Source of the DNA: a bacterium A37T11
GTDB lineage: Bacteria; Bacteroidota; Bacteroidia; Sphingobacteriales; Sphingobacteriaceae
NCBI GenBank assembly: GCA_900109895.1
Contig: FOBR01000002.1
Coordinates: 186,001-250,000, forward strand
Reading direction: 5' to 3'
DNA length: 64,000 nucleotides
Below the pieces are notes generated by a model that was not told the origin of the DNA, did no database searches, and saw nothing but the letters and a program-made list of their open reading frames with translations. Each line of letters opens with the position of its first letter. Position 1 is the first letter of the stretch. Made by a program: the position numbers and the translations under genes. Below are positions 22,403 to 31,424 of this stretch, in pieces.

Positions 22403-22987
22403 TTATTGATGTCTTTTTTCCAAGTTGGCGGCTATACTTGCCAGGGGTATGTTTTTTTCCCTTAACAAAACAAGCAGGTGGAACAGGAGGTCTGATGACT
22501 CATCAATCAAACGCTCTTTAGTCTCGGACAAAGCCGCGATCACCGTTTCAACCCCTTCTTCCCCCACTTTTTGAGCAATCTTATTTAGTCCTTTTTTGCG
22601 CAGCGCATCTACATAAGATCCTTCTTTAGGCTGAACATAGCGGTCATTGACAATGCCCTCCAGCTTAAAAATAAAATTTTGGTCATATTCGGTATTAAAA
22701 CAGCTTCTGGAGCCGGTGTGGCAGGTAGGGCCCGCTGGCTTAGCTTTTATTAGTATAGTATCTTGATCACAGTCTATAAAAGTATTCACTACTTCCAGAA
22801 AATGGCCACTTTCTTCCCCTTTAGTCCAGAGACGCTGTTTGGAACGGGAGAAAAATGTAACCCGTTTTTCAGCCTGCGTTTTGGTCCATGCCTCTTCATT
22901 CATAAATCCCAGCATCAGTACTTCCAGGGTTTGATGATCCTGTATGATAACCGGCACCAATCCATTATCTTTATTAAAATCAATCAT
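22403..22987 (-). CDS. hisIE: Bifunctional phosphoribosyl-AMP cyclohydrolase / phosphoribosyl-ATP pyrophosphatase
   Basis: 194 residues catalysing the second and third steps of histidine synthesis. The N-terminal HisI domain (about 1-100) has the zinc and active-site region DCDQDTILIKAKPAGPTCH and GSRSCF; the C-terminal HisE domain (about 110-194) has YVDALRKKGLNKIAQKVGEE and the metal-binding helix around ESSDLLFHLLVLL. The order HisI-HisE in one chain is usual in Bacteroidota. It follows hisF with 14 bp between them and is the last pathway gene of the operon. Confidence 0.95.
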   Translation of the reverse strand: MIDFNKDNGLVPVIIQDHQTLEVLMLGFMNEEAWTKTQAEKRVTFFSRSKQRLWTKGEESGHFLEVVNTFIDCDQDTILIKAKPAGPTCHTGSRSCFNTEYDQNFIFKLEGIVNDRYVQPKEGSYVDALRKKGLNKIAQKVGEEGVETVIAALSETKERLIDESSDLLFHLLVLLREKNIPLASIAANLEKRHQ

Positions 22988-23001
22988 TATAGTCTTTTCT
23001 A

Positions 23002-23793
23002 TTATAACCGTACATCTATTCCATGATTATTGAGCTCCTTTTTTAATTCGGGAATTAAAATTTCGCCGTAGTGAAATACCGAGGCCGCCAAAGCGGCATC
23101 CACACCGGCTTCCTTAAACACATCAATGAAGTGCTCTACACTGCCAGCACCACCAGAAGCGATTAAGGGTATATGAAGCTCGTCATTGATTTTCTTTAAC
23201 AACTGAAGATCAAACCCATTTTTCGTTCCGTCGTGGTCCATGGACGTAAGCAATATCTCTCCGGCACCACGGCTTTCGGCCTCCCTGATCCAATGTTCGG
23301 TCTCCAAGTCTGTCTTAAGACGTCCACCATTCAGGTGCACATAGTTCCGGCCATCTATCAGGCGTGTATCTACAGCCACTACTACAAATTGAACCCCAAA
23401 AGCATTTGCCAGATCATTAATAAGCCCAGGATTCCGGACAGCAGCAGAATTGATGGAAATTTTATCGGCCCCCGAATTCAGCAGTATATCCGCATCTGCC
23501 AATTCATTAATGCCGCCACCAATGGTAAAGGGTATATTGATCTCCCTGGCGACAGCTTTGACCAGTTCCACCATGGTTTTGCGGCGTTCATGCGTGGCCG
23601 TGATATCCAGAAAAACCAATTCATCTGCGCCATTTCGGGAATATTGCCAGGCCAGTTCTACAGGGTCGCCTGCATCACGCAGATCGACAAAATTTACCCC
23701 CTTTACGGTGCGGCCGTTTTTGACATCCAGGCAGGGAATAATGCGTTTTGCTACGCCGCGGTCTAAAAACTGATCAGTGAGCGAAGGTTCCAT
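23002..23793 (-). CDS. hisF: Imidazole glycerol phosphate synthase cyclase subunit
   Basis: 263 residues, about 10 more than usual. The (beta/alpha)8 barrel has the first catalytic Asp in [17 protein letters not shown] and the second in [15 protein letters not shown]. It converts PRFAR with ammonia from HisH into IGP and AICAR. The ATG at 23793 lies inside the hisA 3' end, giving a 31-bp overlap; the extra residues [14 protein letters not shown] precede the normal AKRIIPCLD opening, and no better start codon is available between them. Confidence 0.95.
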
Positions 23794-24512
23794 TGCTGTA
23801 TTTCTTCGATGCTGATACGGTTTTCGTAAATAGCCTTTCCAACTACACAGGCTTCAACACGGATCTTATCAAGCGCTTCAATGTCTTCCATCGAACTGAT
23901 GCCCCCGGAAGCAATTAATTTGATAATGGGGGAATGGTCCAGCAATTTCTGGTATAAATCAACGCCAGCCCCTCCCAGTTTGCCATCTTTATTAATATCA
24001 GTACATAAAAAGCGGAAGAAGCCCAGAGATAAGCAACGGTCGATGTAATCCATTAACTTTACGGGAGAACTTTCCACCCAACCTGAATATTTGATCACTT
24101 CATCCAACACATCAATGGCGATGACGATATGATCGGCATATTTTTGTTTACCATAATTCAGTTCGCTCAGCTCATCCAAAAACTCAGGGTTAGTAATAGC
24201 TTGTGTGCCAACAATGACCCGATGAATACCGGCATCGATCAGTTCTTTAACCTTTTCTATACTTCGTACGCCGCCACCATACTGCACTTTCATTTCTGTT
24301 TTGCGCGCCACATCAAAAAGATGTTCTTGATTACTAAAATCGCCTTTTGCGCCATTCAGGTCAATGATATGAACCAGCTCAGTTCCATTAGCCTGGTATT
24401 TTTCAATCACATCTTCCAGGTTTACACCATAGTTAGTGACTTCATTATAGTTGCCTTCGCGCAGCCTGACCACCTGTTTATCGAGAATGTCGATTGCCGG
24501 AATGATATACAT
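23763..24512 (-). CDS. hisA: ProFAR isomerase
   Basis: About 249 residues from the ATG at 24512, which gives the standard opening [17 protein letters not shown]; an in-frame ATG at 24554 would overlap hisH and is rejected. The barrel carries the catalytic Asp pair in AIDILD and [11 protein letters not shown] and the phosphate loop ASGGISS. It isomerises ProFAR to PRFAR, the substrate of HisF-HisH, whose genes flank it. It starts 16 bp after hisH and its 3' end overlaps hisF by 31 bp. Confidence 0.95.
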
Positions 24513-24528
24513 ATTTCTATCCTTAATT

Positions 24529-25137
24529 TTACTGGTTGACTGATAAATTTGCAAAATTCATTAATAATTGCTCCCCTGTTGTTCCTGATTTTTCGGGGTG
24601 AAATTGCACTCCGAAAAAATTATCCCGGTGCAATGCCGCAGAAAACCTGATTCCGTATACAGCAAAAGCGGCCGTAAATTTAGGATTATATTCTATAAAA
24701 TAGGAATGTACAAAATAAAAGTATGCATCTTTTTTTATATCCTTGAATAAAGGGTTGTTATCAAGTGGGGAAATCCGGTTCCAACCCATATGAGGCACCT
24801 TGTGTTGGATCCTTCCCTTGAAATTTAACGTGTCAAGAGGTGCAATGTTTAATAAATTTTTATTTCCTTCTTCCGAAAACGCCGTTAATAGCTGCATTCC
24901 TACACAGATACCCAATACAGGTTTGGTGATTTTGGGTATCTCATCGGCCAATCCGCTAGCCACTAATTTGTCCATTGCCACACCTGCGTGCCCTACACCC
25001 GGGATGATGATGTGGCTATAAAGGTTAAAATCGGGTATGTTGTTGATCATACCAAATTCGAGGCCAAGACGTTTCAGTGCTGCCGTTAAGGAAAAAATAT
25101 TCCCCGCCCCATAGTTTACTATTCCTATGTTAGCCAT
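24529..25137 (-). CDS. hisH: Imidazole glycerol phosphate synthase glutaminase subunit
   Basis: 202 residues, a class I glutamine amidotransferase. The nucleophile is Cys78 in LGICVGMQLL and the His-Glu pair is in GVQFHPEKSG. The opening IGIVNYGAGNIFSL is typical. It supplies ammonia to HisF. Its start overlaps the hisB stop by one base (TAATG), indicating translational coupling. Confidence 0.95.
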   Translation of the reverse strand: MANIGIVNYGAGNIFSLTAALKRLGLEFGMINNIPDFNLYSHIIIPGVGHAGVAMDKLVASGLADEIPKITKPVLGICVGMQLLTAFSEEGNKNLLNIAPLDTLNFKGRIQHKVPHMGWNRISPLDNNPLFKDIKKDAYFYFVHSYFIEYNPKFTAAFAVYGIRFSAALHRDNFFGVQFHPEKSGTTGEQLLMNFANLSVNQ

Positions 25138-26267
25138 TATAAAACCCCCTTTGTACTGGGCAACTGCATTTTTTCGACGTCGCGCTTTACAGCCATTTTG
25201 ATTGCTTTGGCAAAGGCCTTAAAGATCGCTTCGATCTTATGGTGCTCATTGGTACCCTCTGCTTTGATATTCAGGTTGCATTTTGCTGCGTCAGAAAAGG
25301 ATTTAAAAAAATGATAAAACATTTCCGTAGGCATGTCGCCCACCTTCTCCCTATGAAACTCAGCTTGCCAAACCAACCAATTTCGTCCACCAAAATCTAT
25401 ACCTACCTGCGCCAGACAGTCATCCATGGGCAGGCAAAATCCATACCGCTCAATGCCGCGTTTATCCCCAAGCGCACCAGCAAAGATCTCCCCTAAGGCG
25501 ATACCCGTATCCTCAATGGTATGGTGTTCATCGATATGCAGGTCGCCCTTAGCCCTTATAAACAGGTCCATGCTGCCATGCCGGGCCAACTGATCGAGCA
25601 TGTGATCAAAAAAGGGTAATCCGGTCTGGATATCGGCTTTTCCGGTCCCATCCAGGTTTAGCGTGATGGCGATGTCCGTTTCGTTAGTCTTACGTCGGTG
25701 CTCTGCATAGCGAGCTCCTAGTTTCAGGAACTCATAGATTTTTTGCCAGTCGGGTGTTTCAAGCGCTACTGTTTTTTGGTCTATCTCGTGGTTTTCTGCA
25801 GCACCCAGCTGGTCGTTGTTGCGCAGCCAAATGGCCTTTGCTCCCAGGTTTTGCGCCAGTTTCACATCATTCACGCGATCGCCGATTACGTAAGATCCCT
25901 CCAAATCGTAGCTATCCGTATTATAATAACCCGTCAGCATAGCCGTTCCAGGTTTTCGGGTAGGTGCATTTTCATGTGGAAAAGTACGGTCAATATGTTC
26001 CGCAGCAAAGACCACCCCTTCCCCGGCAAAAGTGTCTAATATGAACCGATGTACGGGCCAAAAATTGGCTTCCGGATGTGAATCCGTACCCAAGCCGTCC
26101 TGATTACTCACCAATACCAGCTCGTAATCCAGTTCACGGGCTATGCGCGGTAGGTATTGCAATGCACCGGGATAAAACTTCAATTTGGCAAAAGAATCGA
26201 TTTGCTCGTCTTCAGGCTCCTGGATCAGGGTGCCATCCCTGTCAATGAATAAAACTTTTTTGTGCAT
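25137..26267 (-). CDS. hisB: Bifunctional histidinol-phosphatase / imidazoleglycerol-phosphate dehydratase
   Basis: 376 residues. The N-terminal HAD phosphatase domain (about 1-165) begins [14 protein letters not shown] with the nucleophile Asp9 and acid/base Asp11; the C-terminal dehydratase domain (about 185-376) has [30 protein letters not shown] and [15 protein letters not shown] with the metal-binding histidines. This fusion covers two separated steps of histidine synthesis and is found in Enterobacteria and Bacteroidota. It starts one base before the hisC stop region ends (1-bp gap) and overlaps hisH by one base. Confidence 0.96.
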
Positions 26268-26268
26268 G

Positions 26269-27324
26269 CTAGCTATTTCCTTTAAACGCGGTCAACGCAT
26301 GTATTAATGCTGTATTTTCTGTCGGGGTACCTATCGTAATCCGAAGGCAGCCTTCACACAACTCCACTTTTGAACGATCGCGTACCACAATCCCCTTATC
26401 CACCAGGTAGCCATAAATTCTTTTGGGGTCACTGGTTTGGGCAAGGATAAAATTAGCATCCGAAGGATAAATATACGAAATACATTCCAATTTTAAAAGT
26501 TGAGCACTCAACTTGTCCCTTTCGCCCACGATTTCGCGGATCCACCCGTTTACCTGCTCTACATTTTCCAGCGCCTTTAGCGCCAGTTCTTGCGAAGCTT
26601 GGTTAATATTATAAGGGGGTTTAATCTTGTTAAATACCTCGATAATCTCTTCGCTGGCAAATGCCATTCCCACACGCAGCGCGGCCAGGCCCCATGCCTT
26701 TGAAAGTGTCTGCAGGACCACCAGGTTAGCATATTCGGTCAATTCCTGGATAAACGTTTTCTGGCGTGAAAAGTTGATATACGCTTCATCCACCACCACA
26801 ATGCCATTAAAATTGGCTAGTAGCGTCTCTATATCCGACCTATTTATGGAGTTTCCGGTTGGGTTATTGGGAGAGCAGATAAAGATTAGTTTAGTATTGG
26901 TGTCTATAGCTTCGGCTATTCCTTCCAGGTTGAGCTGAAATCCTGGAGTCAGGTTGACCCGTTTGATAGCGATATCGTTAATGTTGGCCGATACTTCATA
27001 CATGCCATACGTAGGAGGAACGATGATCACATTATCTATACCGGGGCGGCAAAAGGCGCGGTACAGAATATCAATGGCCTCGTCACTACCATTTCCAAGG
27101 AAAATATTGCGTGCAGGCACTCCTTTTATCCCACTGATCTTTAATTTCAGTTCATGCTGTAAAGGGTCTGGATAGCGGTTGTAATTTTTATCTAATGGCG
27201 ACCCAAACGCATTTTCATTAGCATCCAGCAGTACTTGAGCCTCCCCTTTAAACTCGTCCCTGGCAGAGGAGTAGGGGGTAAGTGTTTTAATGTTTTCTCG
27301 TAGAATATTAGTTAAATTAAACAT
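26269..27324 (-). CDS. hisC: Histidinol-phosphate aminotransferase
   Basis: 351 residues, a fold-type I PLP enzyme. The PLP lysine is Lys209 in [13 protein letters not shown]; other features are [11 protein letters not shown] near the N-terminus, [19 protein letters not shown] and the C-terminal [10 protein letters not shown]. It transfers an amino group from glutamate to imidazoleacetol phosphate. It is separated from hisD by a 114-bp spacer containing tandem repeats and a hairpin element, while hisB follows immediately. Confidence 0.96.
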
Positions 27325-27330
27325 CTTTCT

Positions 27331-27358
27331 ATTTACGATTTACGGTTTACGATTTATG
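27331..27358. repeat. Short tandem repeat (7 bp, about 4 copies) before hisC
   Basis: ATTTACG, ATTTACG, GTTTACG and ATTTATG follow one another directly upstream of the hisC start. This is a simple repeat inside the operon spacer; no function is evident. Confidence 0.6.
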
Positions 27359-27372
27359 AATGAACCCTCCTT

Positions 27373-27423
27373 TTAAAAAATTAAATTTTCCGTATCCGCA
27401 GAGGGATAAATTGATTTTTTTAA
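27373..27423. repeat. Intergenic hairpin element in the hisD-hisC spacer
   Basis: AT-rich arms (TTAAAAAATTAAATTT and AAATTGATTTTTTTAA) enclose TCCGTATCCGCAGAGGGAT. The inner TATCC-GCAGAG-GGATA forms a small hairpin. The segment 27388-27405 matches 17 of 18 bases of the element at 10111-10128, and the single difference is compensated across the stem. Confidence 0.6.
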
Positions 27424-27438
27424 TAATTTAAACATATT

Positions 27439-28743
27439 TTAATGATCTCGATAAATATTACTTAACCGGAGCGTGACTGCATTTTTATGACCTTGGAGTC
27501 CCTCTAATTCAGCCAGAATCTCTACCGTAGATCCAATGTTTTGAATGCCTTCTGCGGTCAGTTGTTGAAAGGTGATTTTTTTGATAAAGGAATCGACCGA
27601 GACACCAGAGTAGGAGCGGGCATATCCGCTTGTTGGCAGAGTATGATTAGTTCCTGAAGCATAGTCGCCCACACTTTCCGGGGTCAGGTGGCCCAAAAAG
27701 ACCGAGCCCGCGTTGATGATTTTCCGGGTCAGGGTAGCAGGCTCATTGACCGCCAGGATCAGGTGTTCCGGAGCATACACATTGCTAAAGGTTATCGCTT
27801 CCTCAAGCGTTACACATAAGATAGCGTAAGAATTGGCTATCGCTTTGGCGGCTATTGCTGCCCGGGGTAGCTGTGCCAGTTGCCCTCGGAGTTGCTCCTG
27901 AACCCCGTTTATCAAGGCGTTGCTTGTACTCACGAGTACCGCCTGGCTATCGGGTCCATGTTCAGCCTGAGCCAGCAAGTCGGCTGCGACAAAAGCCGGA
28001 TTAGCCGATTCGTCGGCTATGATCAAAACCTCCGAAGGCCCGGCAGGCATATCGATAGCTGTATTGGTACTACTTTGAATCAAACTTTTGGCTTTGGTGA
28101 CGTATTGGTTGCCCGGACCAAAAATCTTATCGACTTTTGGAATGGACTCCGTACCATAGGCCATAGCAGCAACCGCTTGCGCACCCCCTACCAAGTATAC
28201 CCGCTCAATTTTGAGTAAATGGGCGCAATAGGCGATAAACCCATTGATAAGGCCGTTTTCTTGTGGTGGCGAACATACGACGATCTCTTTACATCTGGCT
28301 ATCCTTGCCGGAATTCCCAGCATAAGGAACGTACTGGGCAGCACAGCTGAACCACCTGGTATATATAAGCCCACCCGTTCTATAGGTCTGGACTCCCGCC
28401 AGCACGACACACCCGGCATGGTCTGCACCATTTTTTCACGACGTAGCTGCCCCTGATGAAATCGATATATATTATTAAAGGCGATTTCTAAGGCTCTTTG
28501 CTGTTCACGACCAATAGATAAAACCAATTCCGCCAGCTCATTTGCATCCAAATATAGTTTATCAAGCTTGACGCGGTCAAACTTCAGCGCATAATCTTTT
28601 AAGGATTCATCCCCACGGTTTCGAACCTCATCGATCACCTGTTCTACAACAGCCTGTATTGCATTTCCCGGATCAGTGTTGCGTGCTATCAGCTGGTTAA
28701 TGTCCCCTAAAGAAAGTTCGTTGTAATTATAAGTCTTTAACAT
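27439..28743 (-). CDS. hisD: Histidinol dehydrogenase
   Basis: 434 residues, the usual length. It oxidises histidinol to histidine in two NAD+-dependent steps. Recognisable stretches are GLYIPGGSAVLPSTFLM, IFGPGNQYVTKAK, DMPAGPSEVLIIADE, LLAQAEHGPDSQAVL and YAPEHLIL, which include the zinc and catalytic Glu/His residues; the C-terminal SVGDYASGTNHTLPTSG is also typical. It is the second gene of the operon; spacers on both sides contain short repeats. Confidence 0.96.
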   Translation of the reverse strand: MLKTYNYNELSLGDINQLIARNTDPGNAIQAVVEQVIDEVRNRGDESLKDYALKFDRVKLDKLYLDANELAELVLSIGREQQRALEIAFNNIYRFHQGQLRREKMVQTMPGVSCWRESRPIERVGLYIPGGSAVLPSTFLMLGIPARIARCKEIVVCSPPQENGLINGFIAYCAHLLKIERVYLVGGAQAVAAMAYGTESIPKVDKIFGPGNQYVTKAKSLIQSSTNTAIDMPAGPSEVLIIADESANPAFVAADLLAQAEHGPDSQAVLVSTSNALINGVQEQLRGQLAQLPRAAIAAKAIANSYAILCVTLEEAITFSNVYAPEHLILAVNEPATLTRKIINAGSVFLGHLTPESVGDYASGTNHTLPTSGYARSYSGVSVDSFIKKITFQQLTAEGIQNIGSTVEILAELEGLQGHKNAVTLRLSNIYRDH

Positions 28744-28768
28744 ATAATTCTGAATTTATAATAAGCCA

Positions 28769-28800
28769 TGCTTTTCGCTTTCTGCTTCGTGCTTTTCGCT
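28769..28800. repeat. Direct repeat TGCTTTTCGCT in the hisG-hisD spacer
   Basis: Two perfect 11-bp copies (28769-28779 and 28790-28800) occur with a 21-bp period in the 60-bp gap between hisG and hisD. Confidence 0.5.
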
Positions 28801-28803
28801 CTT

Positions 28804-29655
28804 CTAAAGAATAATTTTCTCTATCGGCATCACCACGATGCCCTGTGATCCGGCAGCTTTGAGTTGATTGATCTTGCCCCAGAAGTCTTGCTCGGTGATG
28901 ACCGTATGCACGGCTACCCATTCTTCCTCTGCTAAGGGTACTACCGTAGGACTTTTGACCCCAGGCAACAAAGAAAGAATGGTCTCAAGATTTTTCTTTT
29001 CGGCATTTAGTACTACATATTTAGTCTCTTTGGCTCTCAGAACCGACTGGATGCGTTGCAGTAATTCAGCGACCACGGGCTCTTTAGCAATGCCATTCAT
29101 ACCAATAAGGATGGCCTCTGAGGAAATCACATCGGTAAACGGTTTCAGCCCATTGCTTTTTAAGGTTCCCCCAGTAGACACGATATCAAAGATGGCGTCG
29201 CTCAGTCCAAGTCCGGGTGAGATCTCTACTGATCCCGAAATGGTACGGATATCAGCACTAATCTGCTGTTCGTCCAGAAATTTTTGAAGGATGACCGGAT
29301 AGGAGGTAGCAATGGCTTTGCCATTTAGGTCCTCAAGGGTAGTTATTGGGCTATTGTTAGGGATGGCGATTTTTAGGGAACACTTACCAAAACCCAATCG
29401 TTGCAGGTAGGTCACGTCGGCATTGGTTTCCATGATCACATTCTCACCAACAATTCCCAGGTCCGCTATTCCGTCTTGTACATATTCCGGAATGTCGTCG
29501 TCGCGCAAAAAAAGAATTTCTAGTGGAAAATTAGCTGCAGAGGTAATGAGAGAACTTTTATAGTTTTCAAAACCCAGTCCACAATTTTTAAGAAGTTCTA
29601 CTGATTTTTCATTGAGCCTGCCAGATTTCTGGATGGCGATTTTTAGTTTTTTCAA
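28804..29655 (-). CDS. hisG: ATP phosphoribosyltransferase (long form)
   Basis: 283 residues, the long form with a C-terminal regulatory domain (about 210-283), so no HisZ is needed. It joins ATP and PRPP, the committed and feedback-inhibited step. Recognisable stretches are KIAIQKSGRLNEKSVELL, DIPEYVQDGIADLGIVGEN, the PRPP loop region DIVSTGGTLKSNGL and the C-terminal GVKSPTVVPLAEEEWVAVH. It is the first structural gene, about 62 nt after the stop of a histidine-rich leader ORF. Confidence 0.95.
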   Translation of the reverse strand: MKKLKIAIQKSGRLNEKSVELLKNCGLGFENYKSSLITSAANFPLEILFLRDDDIPEYVQDGIADLGIVGENVIMETNADVTYLQRLGFGKCSLKIAIPNNSPITTLEDLNGKAIATSYPVILQKFLDEQQISADIRTISGSVEISPGLGLSDAIFDIVSTGGTLKSNGLKPFTDVISSEAILIGMNGIAKEPVVAELLQRIQSVLRAKETKYVVLNAEKKNLETILSLLPGVKSPTVVPLAEEEWVAVHTVITEQDFWGKINQLKAAGSQGIVVMPIEKIIL

Positions 29656-29693
29656 GTTTGTTTATTATTAAGTAAGAAAAATGATGGGGGGTC

Positions 29694-29712
29694 ATGTTTC
29701 ACGTAGAAACAT
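29694..29712 (-). promoter_or_regulatory. Stem-loop between the his leader ORF and hisG
   Basis: ATGTTTC-TACGT-GAAACAT is a perfect 7-bp stem with a 5-nt loop on the minus strand, starting 5 nt after the leader ORF stop. The part TACGTGA can instead pair with TCACGTA inside the leader's histidine codons (plus 29751-29757). A U-rich stretch (CATCATTTTTCTT) follows about 10 nt later, so it could be part of an attenuator, though it is not a textbook terminator. Confidence 0.45.
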
Positions 29713-29717
29713 ACAAG

Positions 29718-29777
29718 TTACATATCGCCGCAATGGCGATGGTGGAAATGTACGTGATGGGTGAAAACAATGTTCAT
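29718..29777 (-). CDS. hisL: Histidine operon leader peptide
   Basis: A 19-codon ORF directly upstream of hisG encodes MNIVFTHHVHFHHRHCGDM. Six of nine residues from position 7 to 15 are histidine (7, 8, 10, 12, 13, 15), written with both CAT and CAC codons. This is the hallmark of a ribosome-stalling leader peptide for the histidine operon that follows. It lies downstream of a promoter motif (29812-29819) and upstream of a stem-loop; its own 3' end folds as ATCGCC-ATTGC-GGCGAT (29723-29739). Too short for normal gene finders. The symbol is by analogy with the enterobacterial leader; homology is not implied. Confidence 0.75.
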   Translation of the reverse strand: MNIVFTHHVHFHHRHCGDM

Positions 29778-29811
29778 TTAACGATGCTTACTTATAAGTT
29801 TTAATGCGGGG

Positions 29812-29819
29812 CAAACGTA
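29812..29819 (-). promoter_or_regulatory. -7 promoter element of the his operon
   Basis: The minus strand reads TACGTTTG, matching TAnnTTTG, 34 nt upstream of the leader ORF; a TTTTC about 20 bp further upstream may be a weak -33. The leader transcript would be about 150 nt. Confidence 0.5.
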
Positions 29820-29904
29820 CTATTTATTTACGATAATTGAAAATAAATCTTTTCATTTTGTTGACCTTTGCCTCAAAATATAAGTTAATTGGATTAATTG
29901 AACC

Positions 29905-30561
29905 ATGACAAAAAGTGAAGAGAATTTTTTTCAAAGGCTAAAGCCCCTGCCGAGAACATTTATTTCTTTGGCCGCAGGATTAGTGGTATTCCTGGCTTTG
30001 CCGCAAACCATGTCACTTCTGGTTAAAATCATGTTAGGGTGGGGTAGCTTGGCAATGATATACCTTATATTATGCTATTTGGTGATCAGCTCGCTCGATG
30101 CTTCATCCATAAAACGAAAAGCGGCAGCGGAAGATGGTAACCGGGTTTTTGTACTGATTTTAATACTTATATCGGCTTTTGCCAGTTTTTTAGGTGTCTT
30201 TTCTTTAATTGTAAGTGATGAGGCCAGCAAATCCAAATCATTTATCGTAGTTTTATCCATTAGCGTGACCGTATTGTCATGGCTTCTTATCCATACCGCA
30301 TTTATTTTTCACTATGCCTATTTGTACTATCGTAGTGGCAAGAACGGTAGCGGGCTTAAATTTCCGGATGATGGTGAATTGGATTATCTGGATTTTGCCT
30401 ATTACTCTTTTTGCATGGGATGTACCTTTCAGGTATCAGACGTGTCGGTTACATCCAAAGAGATCCGTCTGGTAACGATGTTGCATGGGTTGCTGGCATT
30501 CGTACTAAATACCTTTGTATTGGCATTGGCTATTAATATTGCAGCGGGGATGAATCATTAA
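29905..30561 (+). CDS. DUF1345 family integral membrane protein
   Basis: 218 residues with about five hydrophobic membrane segments (roughly 20-36, 42-62, 82-104, 114-136 and 190-213). The stretch DFAYYSFCMGCTFQVSDVSVTSKEIRLVTMLHGLL, recognisable as YYSFCMGCTFQVSDV and RLVTMLHGLLAFVLNT, identifies DUF1345, an inner-membrane family of unknown function whose tail resembles two-pore channel loops. It is divergent from the his operon. A TGACCTTTG (29862-29870) may be its -7 element. Confidence 0.85.
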   Translation: MTKSEENFFQRLKPLPRTFISLAAGLVVFLALPQTMSLLVKIMLGWGSLAMIYLILCYLVISSLDASSIKRKAAAEDGNRVFVLILILISAFASFLGVFSLIVSDEASKSKSFIVVLSISVTVLSWLLIHTAFIFHYAYLYYRSGKNGSGLKFPDDGELDYLDFAYYSFCMGCTFQVSDVSVTSKEIRLVTMLHGLLAFVLNTFVLALAINIAAGMNH

Positions 30562-30640
30562 ATTACCTTGCTTCGCCCGGTGAGCCTGGAGGGGATGATA
30601 GACGACAACGAAAGCGAACTTGGATCCGCCACTCTTAAAT

Positions 30641-30667
30641 AAAAAAAACCCTGCTTACGCAAGGGTT
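30641..30667 (-). terminator. Rho-independent terminator of the tRNA-Pro gene
   Basis: On the minus strand AACCCTT-GCGTAAGC-AGGGTT is followed by eight T. It begins 13 nt after the tRNA 3' end. Confidence 0.8.
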
Positions 30668-30680
30668 GCTGTTGTTGATG

Positions 30681-30754
30681 TCGGGGTGGCAGGATTCGAA
30701 CCTACGACCTCCTGGTCCCAAACCAGGCGCGATACCGGGCTACGCTACACCCCG
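30681..30754 (-). tRNA. tRNA-Pro (anticodon TGG)
   Basis: 74 nt on the minus strand fold as a full cloverleaf. The acceptor stem is CGGGGTG with CACCCCG plus discriminator A; the anticodon arm is CCTGG-TTTGGGA-CCAGG with anticodon TGG; the T arm contains GGTTCGAATCC. The CCA end is not encoded. It has its own promoter motif upstream and a terminator downstream. Confidence 0.95.
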
Positions 30755-30794
30755 AACGGTATCTTTTATTTCCATCCTTATTTGGATGAGGCTG

Positions 30795-30802
30795 CAAAGG
30801 TA
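30795..30802 (-). promoter_or_regulatory. -7 promoter element of tRNA-Pro
   Basis: The minus strand reads TACCTTTG, 40 nt before the tRNA 5' end; ATTG lies 18 bp further upstream near the -33 position. Confidence 0.5.
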
Positions 30803-30962
30803 AATAAAGAATTGATATTTCAATAAAATTTATGAAATATTTTTAATCCATTAAATTTAGTTCAAATAATAGGTTACCTCCAAGAATTGATACAAATAGA
30901 CTAATGATTGAATAGGCTCACTATCCAACACACTTGCTGCTTTAGGAAAATGAATCGCTAAA

Positions 30963-31424
30963 TCATTGTTCTTTTTTGTAATTGCTGGCAGATGAACAGT
31001 CAATGTGTCGAGGTAGAAAAAAGCCGATAAGCCATTTCAGAGGTGCCAAAAAATTCCAAAACCAGCGGTTGCTGTCTTTACCTTTTTCACCACAATCTAT
31101 AATTTGCGAAGGTCTGACCATCTCATTTAATTTTTTATGCAGGAAAGAAATGGGTATTGCGTGTTTTAGCGACAGAATGAGCCATTCATAGTATACATGC
31201 CCCCAAATTTCAACAATTAATGACGCATGGCTGATAGCCAGTGGATGCTGAAAAAATTGAAGATAAACCAATAGTGCGGTGTCTACCAATATAGAAGTAT
31301 GCAAACGTGGATGGGTACCCAGCAGCTTCCAAAGTTCAAAGTCGTTGATAATTCGTAACACACCTGGTTCCATACGGATGCAGATGTGGCATTTCTGCAC
31401 TATCAAGGTTCTTTCTATAACCAT
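30963..31424 (-). CDS. Hypothetical protein, 153 aa
   Basis: I do not recognise this protein. The frame is open for 153 codons in a region with no competing gene. The product is rich in aromatic and hydrophobic residues in its centre (ILVDTALLVYLQFFQHPL, LIVEIWGHVYYEWLIL), has a basic stretch about 97-122, and ends in a short charged tail. There is no clear signal peptide; the central hydrophobic parts look like amphipathic helices rather than confident membrane spans. It is divergent from the HipA-like kinase gene with 50 bp between starts. Codon use looks like its neighbours, which supports a real gene. Confidence 0.55.
   Translation of the reverse strand: MVIERTLIVQKCHICIRMEPGVLRIINDFELWKLLGTHPRLHTSILVDTALLVYLQFFQHPLAISHASLIVEIWGHVYYEWLILSLKHAIPISFLHKKLNEMVRPSQIIDCGEKGKDSNRWFWNFLAPLKWLIGFFLPRHIDCSSASNYKKEQ

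Follow-up and report, generated by a model that had tools for sequence, protein, structure and literature searches.

Attenuation by histidine-rich leaders is textbook biology. In translational attenuation of the ermC type, known from erm and cat genes, a ribosome that stalls on the leader peptide releases a downstream ribosome binding site from sequestration, and control of leaders that depends on Rho and NusG exists in other systems. To our knowledge, Bacteroidota do not use Shine-Dalgarno sequences, and we are aware of little work on how translation is regulated in cis in bacteria that do without them. For the 5' UTR of hisD in Corynebacterium glutamicum, which has no histidine leader peptide, a T-box-like or translational control with sequestration of the Shine-Dalgarno sequence and binding of tRNA has been proposed (PMC3896937). 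Another report describes a conserved structured element 5' of hisG in Flavobacteriaceae, including Flavobacterium psychrophilum, for which it gives no Rfam match, and, for F. psychrophilum, clues to leader peptides 5' of operons for amino acids (PMC9723704). An earlier description of a his attenuator in Sphingobacteriaceae was not found in the open-licence literature.

The locus analyzed here belongs to bacterium A37T11 (Sphingobacteriaceae) and lies in a contiguous stretch of 64,000 nucleotides, all of which is referred to as the window. It carries a leader followed by a his operon in the order hisGDCBHAF(IE) (Table 1). An earlier note made from the sequence had placed a 19-codon ORF with six histidines among nine residues between a -7 promoter motif and hisG. 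Both elements were confirmed on the minus strand, the motif being located 5' of the first base of the ORF. The histidines occupy codons 7, 8, 10, 12, 13 and 15 (HHVHFHHRH), a density reached by the leader alone among 1,138 short ATG ORFs of the window, the runners-up having four histidines in nine residues. Judged from the position of the motif, transcription is expected to start a few bases 3' of it, at about 29805-29810. The stop codon of the leader is separated from the UUG start of hisG by 62 bases of AU-rich sequence. The leader RNA is more stable than its dinucleotide shuffles, with a z of -2.9 in the window and a median z of -4.1 in 30 relatives. A scan of positions 28500-31000 with Rfam covariance models returned neither His_leader nor another leader family or a T-box, but only a tRNA and one match at chance level. 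The intergenic region of the his promoter is shared with a divergent, membrane-protein-like ORF of 218 amino acids, which has no NCBIfam match.

Table 1. Positions of the leader elements and of the his operon in the 64,000-nucleotide window.
Feature	Positions	Strand	Details	Basis
Divergent ORF	29905-30561	+	membrane-protein-like, 218 aa	
Promoter -7 motif	29812..29819	-	Bacteroidota-type TAnnTTTG (TACGTTTG, TAcgTTTG)	sequence match
P1 5' arm	29774..29794	-	UAAGUAAG (29794-29787) + AAAUGA (29779-29774, includes leader AUG)	minimum-energy helices; coevolution with 3' arm
Leader ORF	29718..29777	-	MNIVFTHHVHFHHRHCGDM, 19 codons, ATG start, TAA stop; codons ATG AAC ATT GTT TTC ACC CAT CAC GTA CAT TTC CAC CAT CGC CAT TGC GGC GAT ATG TAA	read from sequence
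P2 left arm	29749..29768	-	GUU, UUCAC, ACGUACA; in leader codons 4-10, including His codons 7, 8 and 10	predicted fold; coevolution
P3 hairpin	29724..29740	-	AUCGCC(auugc)GGCGAU, 3' end of the His run; arms 29740-29735 / 29729-29724	predicted fold
P2 right arm	29691..29715	-	UGUAUGU, GUGAA, GAC; holds conserved block GUUUCUACGUGAAAC (29710-29696)	predicted fold; coevolution
P4 hairpin	29695..29711	-	UGUUUC(uacgu)GAAACA, mutually exclusive with P2	predicted fold, family alignment
P1 3' arm	29669..29684	-	UCAUUU (29684-29679) + CUUACUUA (29676-29669), about 14-29 bases 5' of the hisG UUG	minimum-energy helices; coevolution
hisG	28804..29655	-	ATP phosphoribosyltransferase, UUG start at 29655, first gene of the operon	TIGR00070, E 4.9e-57
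Remaining his operon	22403..28743	-	hisD-hisIE	
hisD	27439-28743	-		NCBIfam equivalog
hisC	26269-27324	-		NCBIfam equivalog
hisB	25137-26267	-		named from translation
hisH	24529-25137	-		named from translation
hisA	23763-24554	-		named from translation
hisF	23002-23793	-		named from translation
hisIE	22403-22987	-		named from translation

Within the GTDB family of the host, hisG is present in 232 of 251 genomes. When 110 hisG upstream regions of Sphingobacteriaceae were searched for a conserved histidine run, a short histidine-rich ORF was found 5' of hisG in 108 of them. One of the two exceptions (L067) shows a degenerate leader with three histidines when its sequence is read. The histidine positions are constant across the family at codons 7, 8, 10, 12 and 13, and the TAnnTTTG motif is located shortly 5' of the leader in all 91 Sphingobacteriaceae elements analyzed. 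A scan of named genomes contributed just three loci with more than 80% identity, including those of Parapedobacter and Olivibacter. The comparison was extended to 59 hisG loci from other families spread over the class, and an order-level search added no sister family. A histidine-rich leader precedes hisG in most of these 59 loci and in most other families of the Bacteroidia. The idea that the leader is a chance ORF without function is refuted by this conservation of the histidine run across the class, together with the coevolution of the helices described below, and can practically be dismissed. The proposal of the earlier note that a leader of histidine codons would control hisG is thus strongly supported by conservation. 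Neither of the two refuting observations named there was obtained: relatives retain the histidine run, and a promoter motif, from which transcription is expected to begin, is placed 5' of position 29777. Two loci of one genus (L036, L037) harbor a longer leader (MITKKHIALHHRTHHHGHHHHCA) and lack the conserved downstream block. In three genomes (L006, L007, L020), the margin of the hisG locus shows a partial match to tmRNA (ssrA).

In the other families, a GC-rich hairpin and a T-run come after the leader, for example GGCTTACC-GGTAAGCC-TTTTTT. An automatic scan returned terminator matches in 52 of the 59 loci, a few of which are clearly not attenuators, and an HH leader and an intrinsic terminator occur together in 47. 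The stretch between the histidine codons and the terminator pairs best with the left arm of its own terminator (none of 5,000 permutations was as good). These features indicate that leader and terminator constitute a classical transcription attenuator in other Bacteroidia, and attenuation of his by a terminator is presumably the ancestral state in the class. In Sphingobacteriaceae, the same scan yielded an intrinsic terminator match in one of 108 loci; this match is weak and is identical to hairpin P4. Between leader and hisG in the window no intrinsic terminator was found, in agreement with the earlier remark that the stem after the ORF is no textbook terminator. Upstream of trpE in the host genome (L212 / L236), a tryptophan leader (VKLIHTTFGNWWWPLEKSAGSCYI, GTG start, WWW) precedes a GC-rich intrinsic terminator, and among the trp leader regions of 30 Sphingobacteriaceae members a tryptophan leader was present in 28 and a strong terminator in all 30. 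As far as tested, the loss of the terminator is therefore specific to his. This makes it very improbable that the locus is a classical his/trp-type transcription attenuator whose intrinsic terminator is simply weak or unusual: a leader of the same kind does operate with coevolving terminators and antiterminators in other Bacteroidia, but the single match in Sphingobacteriaceae lacks the form of a GC-rich, U-tailed hairpin. Outside Sphingobacteriaceae, the isolated hisG leaders of L144, L148, L150 and L129 seemingly lack a strong U-tailed terminator, and L150 also has UUG as the start codon of hisG. Comparison of these loci suggests that the terminator losses outside Sphingobacteriaceae were independent.

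Folding of the leader RNA revealed a long-range helix, P1, which joins the start region of the leader to the region just 5' of hisG and was not described in the earlier note. It was predicted in the minimum-energy fold of all 91 family loci tested. Relative to the leader AUG, which is inside the helix in 71 of these loci, its 5' arm extends from -15 to +2, and its 3' arm has a median position of -37 to -15 relative to the hisG start, the start codon itself usually remaining outside. The arms are very different between genera, as illustrated by AAUCAGGAACCAA/UUGGUCUGAUU, AAUCGGG/CCGAUU and AAAGACA/UGUCUUU. Native and swapped arm pairs were compared for nine mutually dissimilar representatives with 5,000 permutations. 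The native pairs were better in 35 of 36 comparisons, with one against, and no permutation was as good. Three controls, in which the 3' arms were reversed or coding sequence was set against the 5' arm or the 3' arm, were flat. RNAalifold applied to a plain MAFFT alignment recovered only P3 and P4; P1 was missed because its arms do not align across genera.

The start codon of hisG is weak in most of the family. It differs from AUG in 93 of the 110 Sphingobacteriaceae loci (UUG in 76, GUG in 17); AUG is used in at least 51 of the 59 loci of other families, and by hisD in all 33 Sphingobacteriaceae loci. In the predicted default fold, the coevolving P1 would sequester the putative hisG initiation region at every one of the 91 loci, which is a feature of translational attenuators. 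In Flavobacterium johnsoniae, a relative that likewise lacks Shine-Dalgarno sequences, initiation is tuned by mRNA structure and needs low structure from about -20 to +20 (PMC6847099). A helix ending near -15 is thus a plausible block. As the terminator hairpin has been replaced by a helix that joins the start sites of leader and hisG, histidine probably controls translation. The suggestion in the earlier note that the mechanism might be translational rather than terminator-based is supported by the absence of the terminator throughout the family and by a helix that coevolves and overlies the initiation region of hisG.

The apparent start of hisG is displaced at 16 of 108 loci, to an ATG located 100-319 nt past the leader stop. 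P1 cannot work in the same way there, and the model leaves these loci unexplained. An ATG start 140-319 nt past the leader stop was recorded for L003, L004, L006, L007, L018, L020, L021, L092, L101 and L104. In several of these, the interval from the former start to the ATG holds an additional inverted repeat (GCATGAA...TTCATGC-like) and, after it, AAGCTTCATTGCC; this sequence may represent a second regulatory element. For L004, the stretch that separates the leader from the displaced start was also considered as a dispersed repeat and rejected, as it occurs in a single copy in its own genome and has no match in four others.

Inside P1, the leader can form further pairings. The complementarity reported earlier between TCACGTA in the histidine codons (29757-29751) and TACGTGA downstream of the ORF (29705-29699) is exact, and the small hairpin seen at the 3' end of the ORF was recovered as P3, for which the family alignment contains one pair with compensatory G-C/A-U changes. 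The pairing of leader codons with the downstream block, P2, gave 31 comparisons for the native arms, one against and four ties in the arm-swap test. The local hairpin P4, absent from the earlier note, is conserved and competes with the pairing between leader and downstream sequence. P2 and P4 are predicted to be mutually exclusive, and the former, which coevolves, involves the histidine codons. Across many genera the block GUUUCUACGUGAAAC hardly varies and is conserved beyond the need of a simple hairpin, hinting at an unrecognised factor. Its interpretation as a dispersed element was rejected, since the genome contains one exact copy.

The conserved alternative pairing of P2 and P4 could also serve a leader that acts on transcription, via Rho-dependent termination or pausing of RNA polymerase before hisG, with the two pairings exposing or hiding a site for Rho or NusG. 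Such a mechanism would be in line with the transcriptional nature of the ancestral system in the class, and the block GUUUCUACGUGAAAC could serve as a pause or protein site. However, it explains neither the coevolution of P1 nor the UUG or GUG start of hisG but not of hisD, and the AU-rich gap of about 60 nt between leader and hisG offers little space for a C-rich Rho site. We therefore consider it unlikely, although it retains some weight. Leader genes that raise downstream translation by reinitiation, at distances of 11-14 bp, have been proposed for Bacteroidetes (PMC4833913). By analogy, ribosome traffic on the leader might shield the mRNA or feed reinitiation at hisG, with P1 as a stability clamp between 5' and 3' ends and histidine codons that respond mildly to starvation. 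This role is improbable, as the distance from stop to start at this locus is far off the 11-14 bp peak, and the conserved positions of the histidine codons and the switch between P2 and P4 would be needless.

Ribosome-mediated translational attenuation of hisG by histidine is the best explanation of the locus, and we regard it as somewhat probable. The leader peptide would be the sensor, on which ribosomes would slow down at the conserved histidine codons when charged His-tRNA is scarce, as is established for attenuation elsewhere. P1 would be the actuator. It would bind the start region of the leader (approximately -15 to +2) to the region where hisG is initiated (approximately -37 to -15), and P2 and P3, located between its arms, would assist. 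With plentiful histidine, ribosomes would clear the leader, P2, P3 and P1 would close and initiation at the weak UUG or GUG start of hisG would be blocked. With scarce histidine, stalling of a ribosome at the first or middle histidine codons would break P2 and allow P4 to form, while the next ribosome, waiting in line at the leader AUG, would hold P1 open, so that hisG would be translated. The conserved histidine codons 12 and 13 are separated from the AUG by roughly the length of one ribosome, and a ribosome stalled there could thus hold a second one over the 5' arm of P1.

This scheme was examined by constrained thermodynamic folding, in which ribosome footprints were masked and pairs of P1, P2 and P4 were counted for each state. 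P1 and P2 were formed when the RNA was free and when a ribosome occupied the leader stop codon. With a ribosome stalled so that the first or middle histidine codon is in the empty A site, P2 largely gave way to P4, and this switch was weaker with a ribosome at the last histidine codon. P1 was lost only in states with a ribosome on the leader AUG, whether by itself or waiting behind a stalled one, the mean number of pairs falling from 19 to about 3. A lone ribosome halted at middle or late histidine codons leaves P1 closed in the model, and the additional ribosome at the AUG is an assumption. Pair counts by state told stalled from finished ribosomes apart for P2 and P4 but not for P1, and the accessibility of hisG from -35 to -8 did not separate these two states. 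The terminators found across the class, folded with the ribosome stalled or at the stop codon, also showed little difference, as a kinetic switch would be expected to do, and were not counted as evidence. This result also implies that folding of such a static kind has little resolving power for P1. For the broader proposition that the his switch of the whole family has passed from termination to translational control by pairing of the leader and hisG start regions, with queuing reporting the shortage and the trp leader still transcriptional, we see the chances as even.

Leader and P1 together form a candidate histidine-responsive translational switch. The same sensor peptide is combined with a terminator in most Bacteroidia and with a helix at the initiation region in Sphingobacteriaceae, which provides a natural comparison with the trp leader as internal control. 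The system thereby makes the evolutionary swapping of regulatory outputs directly testable with simple reporters. The histidine-rich leaders of other Bacteroidia (loci L115-L173), likewise located 5' of hisG, likely represent the ancestral form; they differ by a coevolving antiterminator and a strong GC-rich intrinsic terminator, the latter having been lost in Sphingobacteriaceae. The enterobacterial his attenuator (hisL) resembles the locus in its short leader with a run of histidine codons directly 5' of hisG and in mutually exclusive pairings that involve these codons, but here, in place of the intrinsic terminator, hisG has a weak start codon and an initiation region overlain by a long-range helix. 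Measured against his/trp-type transcription attenuators in general, the codon run and the exclusive pairings are present, whereas the terminator, a defining feature, is not. The hisD locus of C. glutamicum shares with the present one a his operon whose 5' UTR has been proposed to sequester the initiation region; in the present case, however, the putative sensor is a translated peptide. The likeness to erm and cat attenuators is one of logic only, since amino-acid shortage takes the place of a drug as the predicted signal, sequestration would be by the start region of the leader itself and the host lineage does without Shine-Dalgarno pairing.
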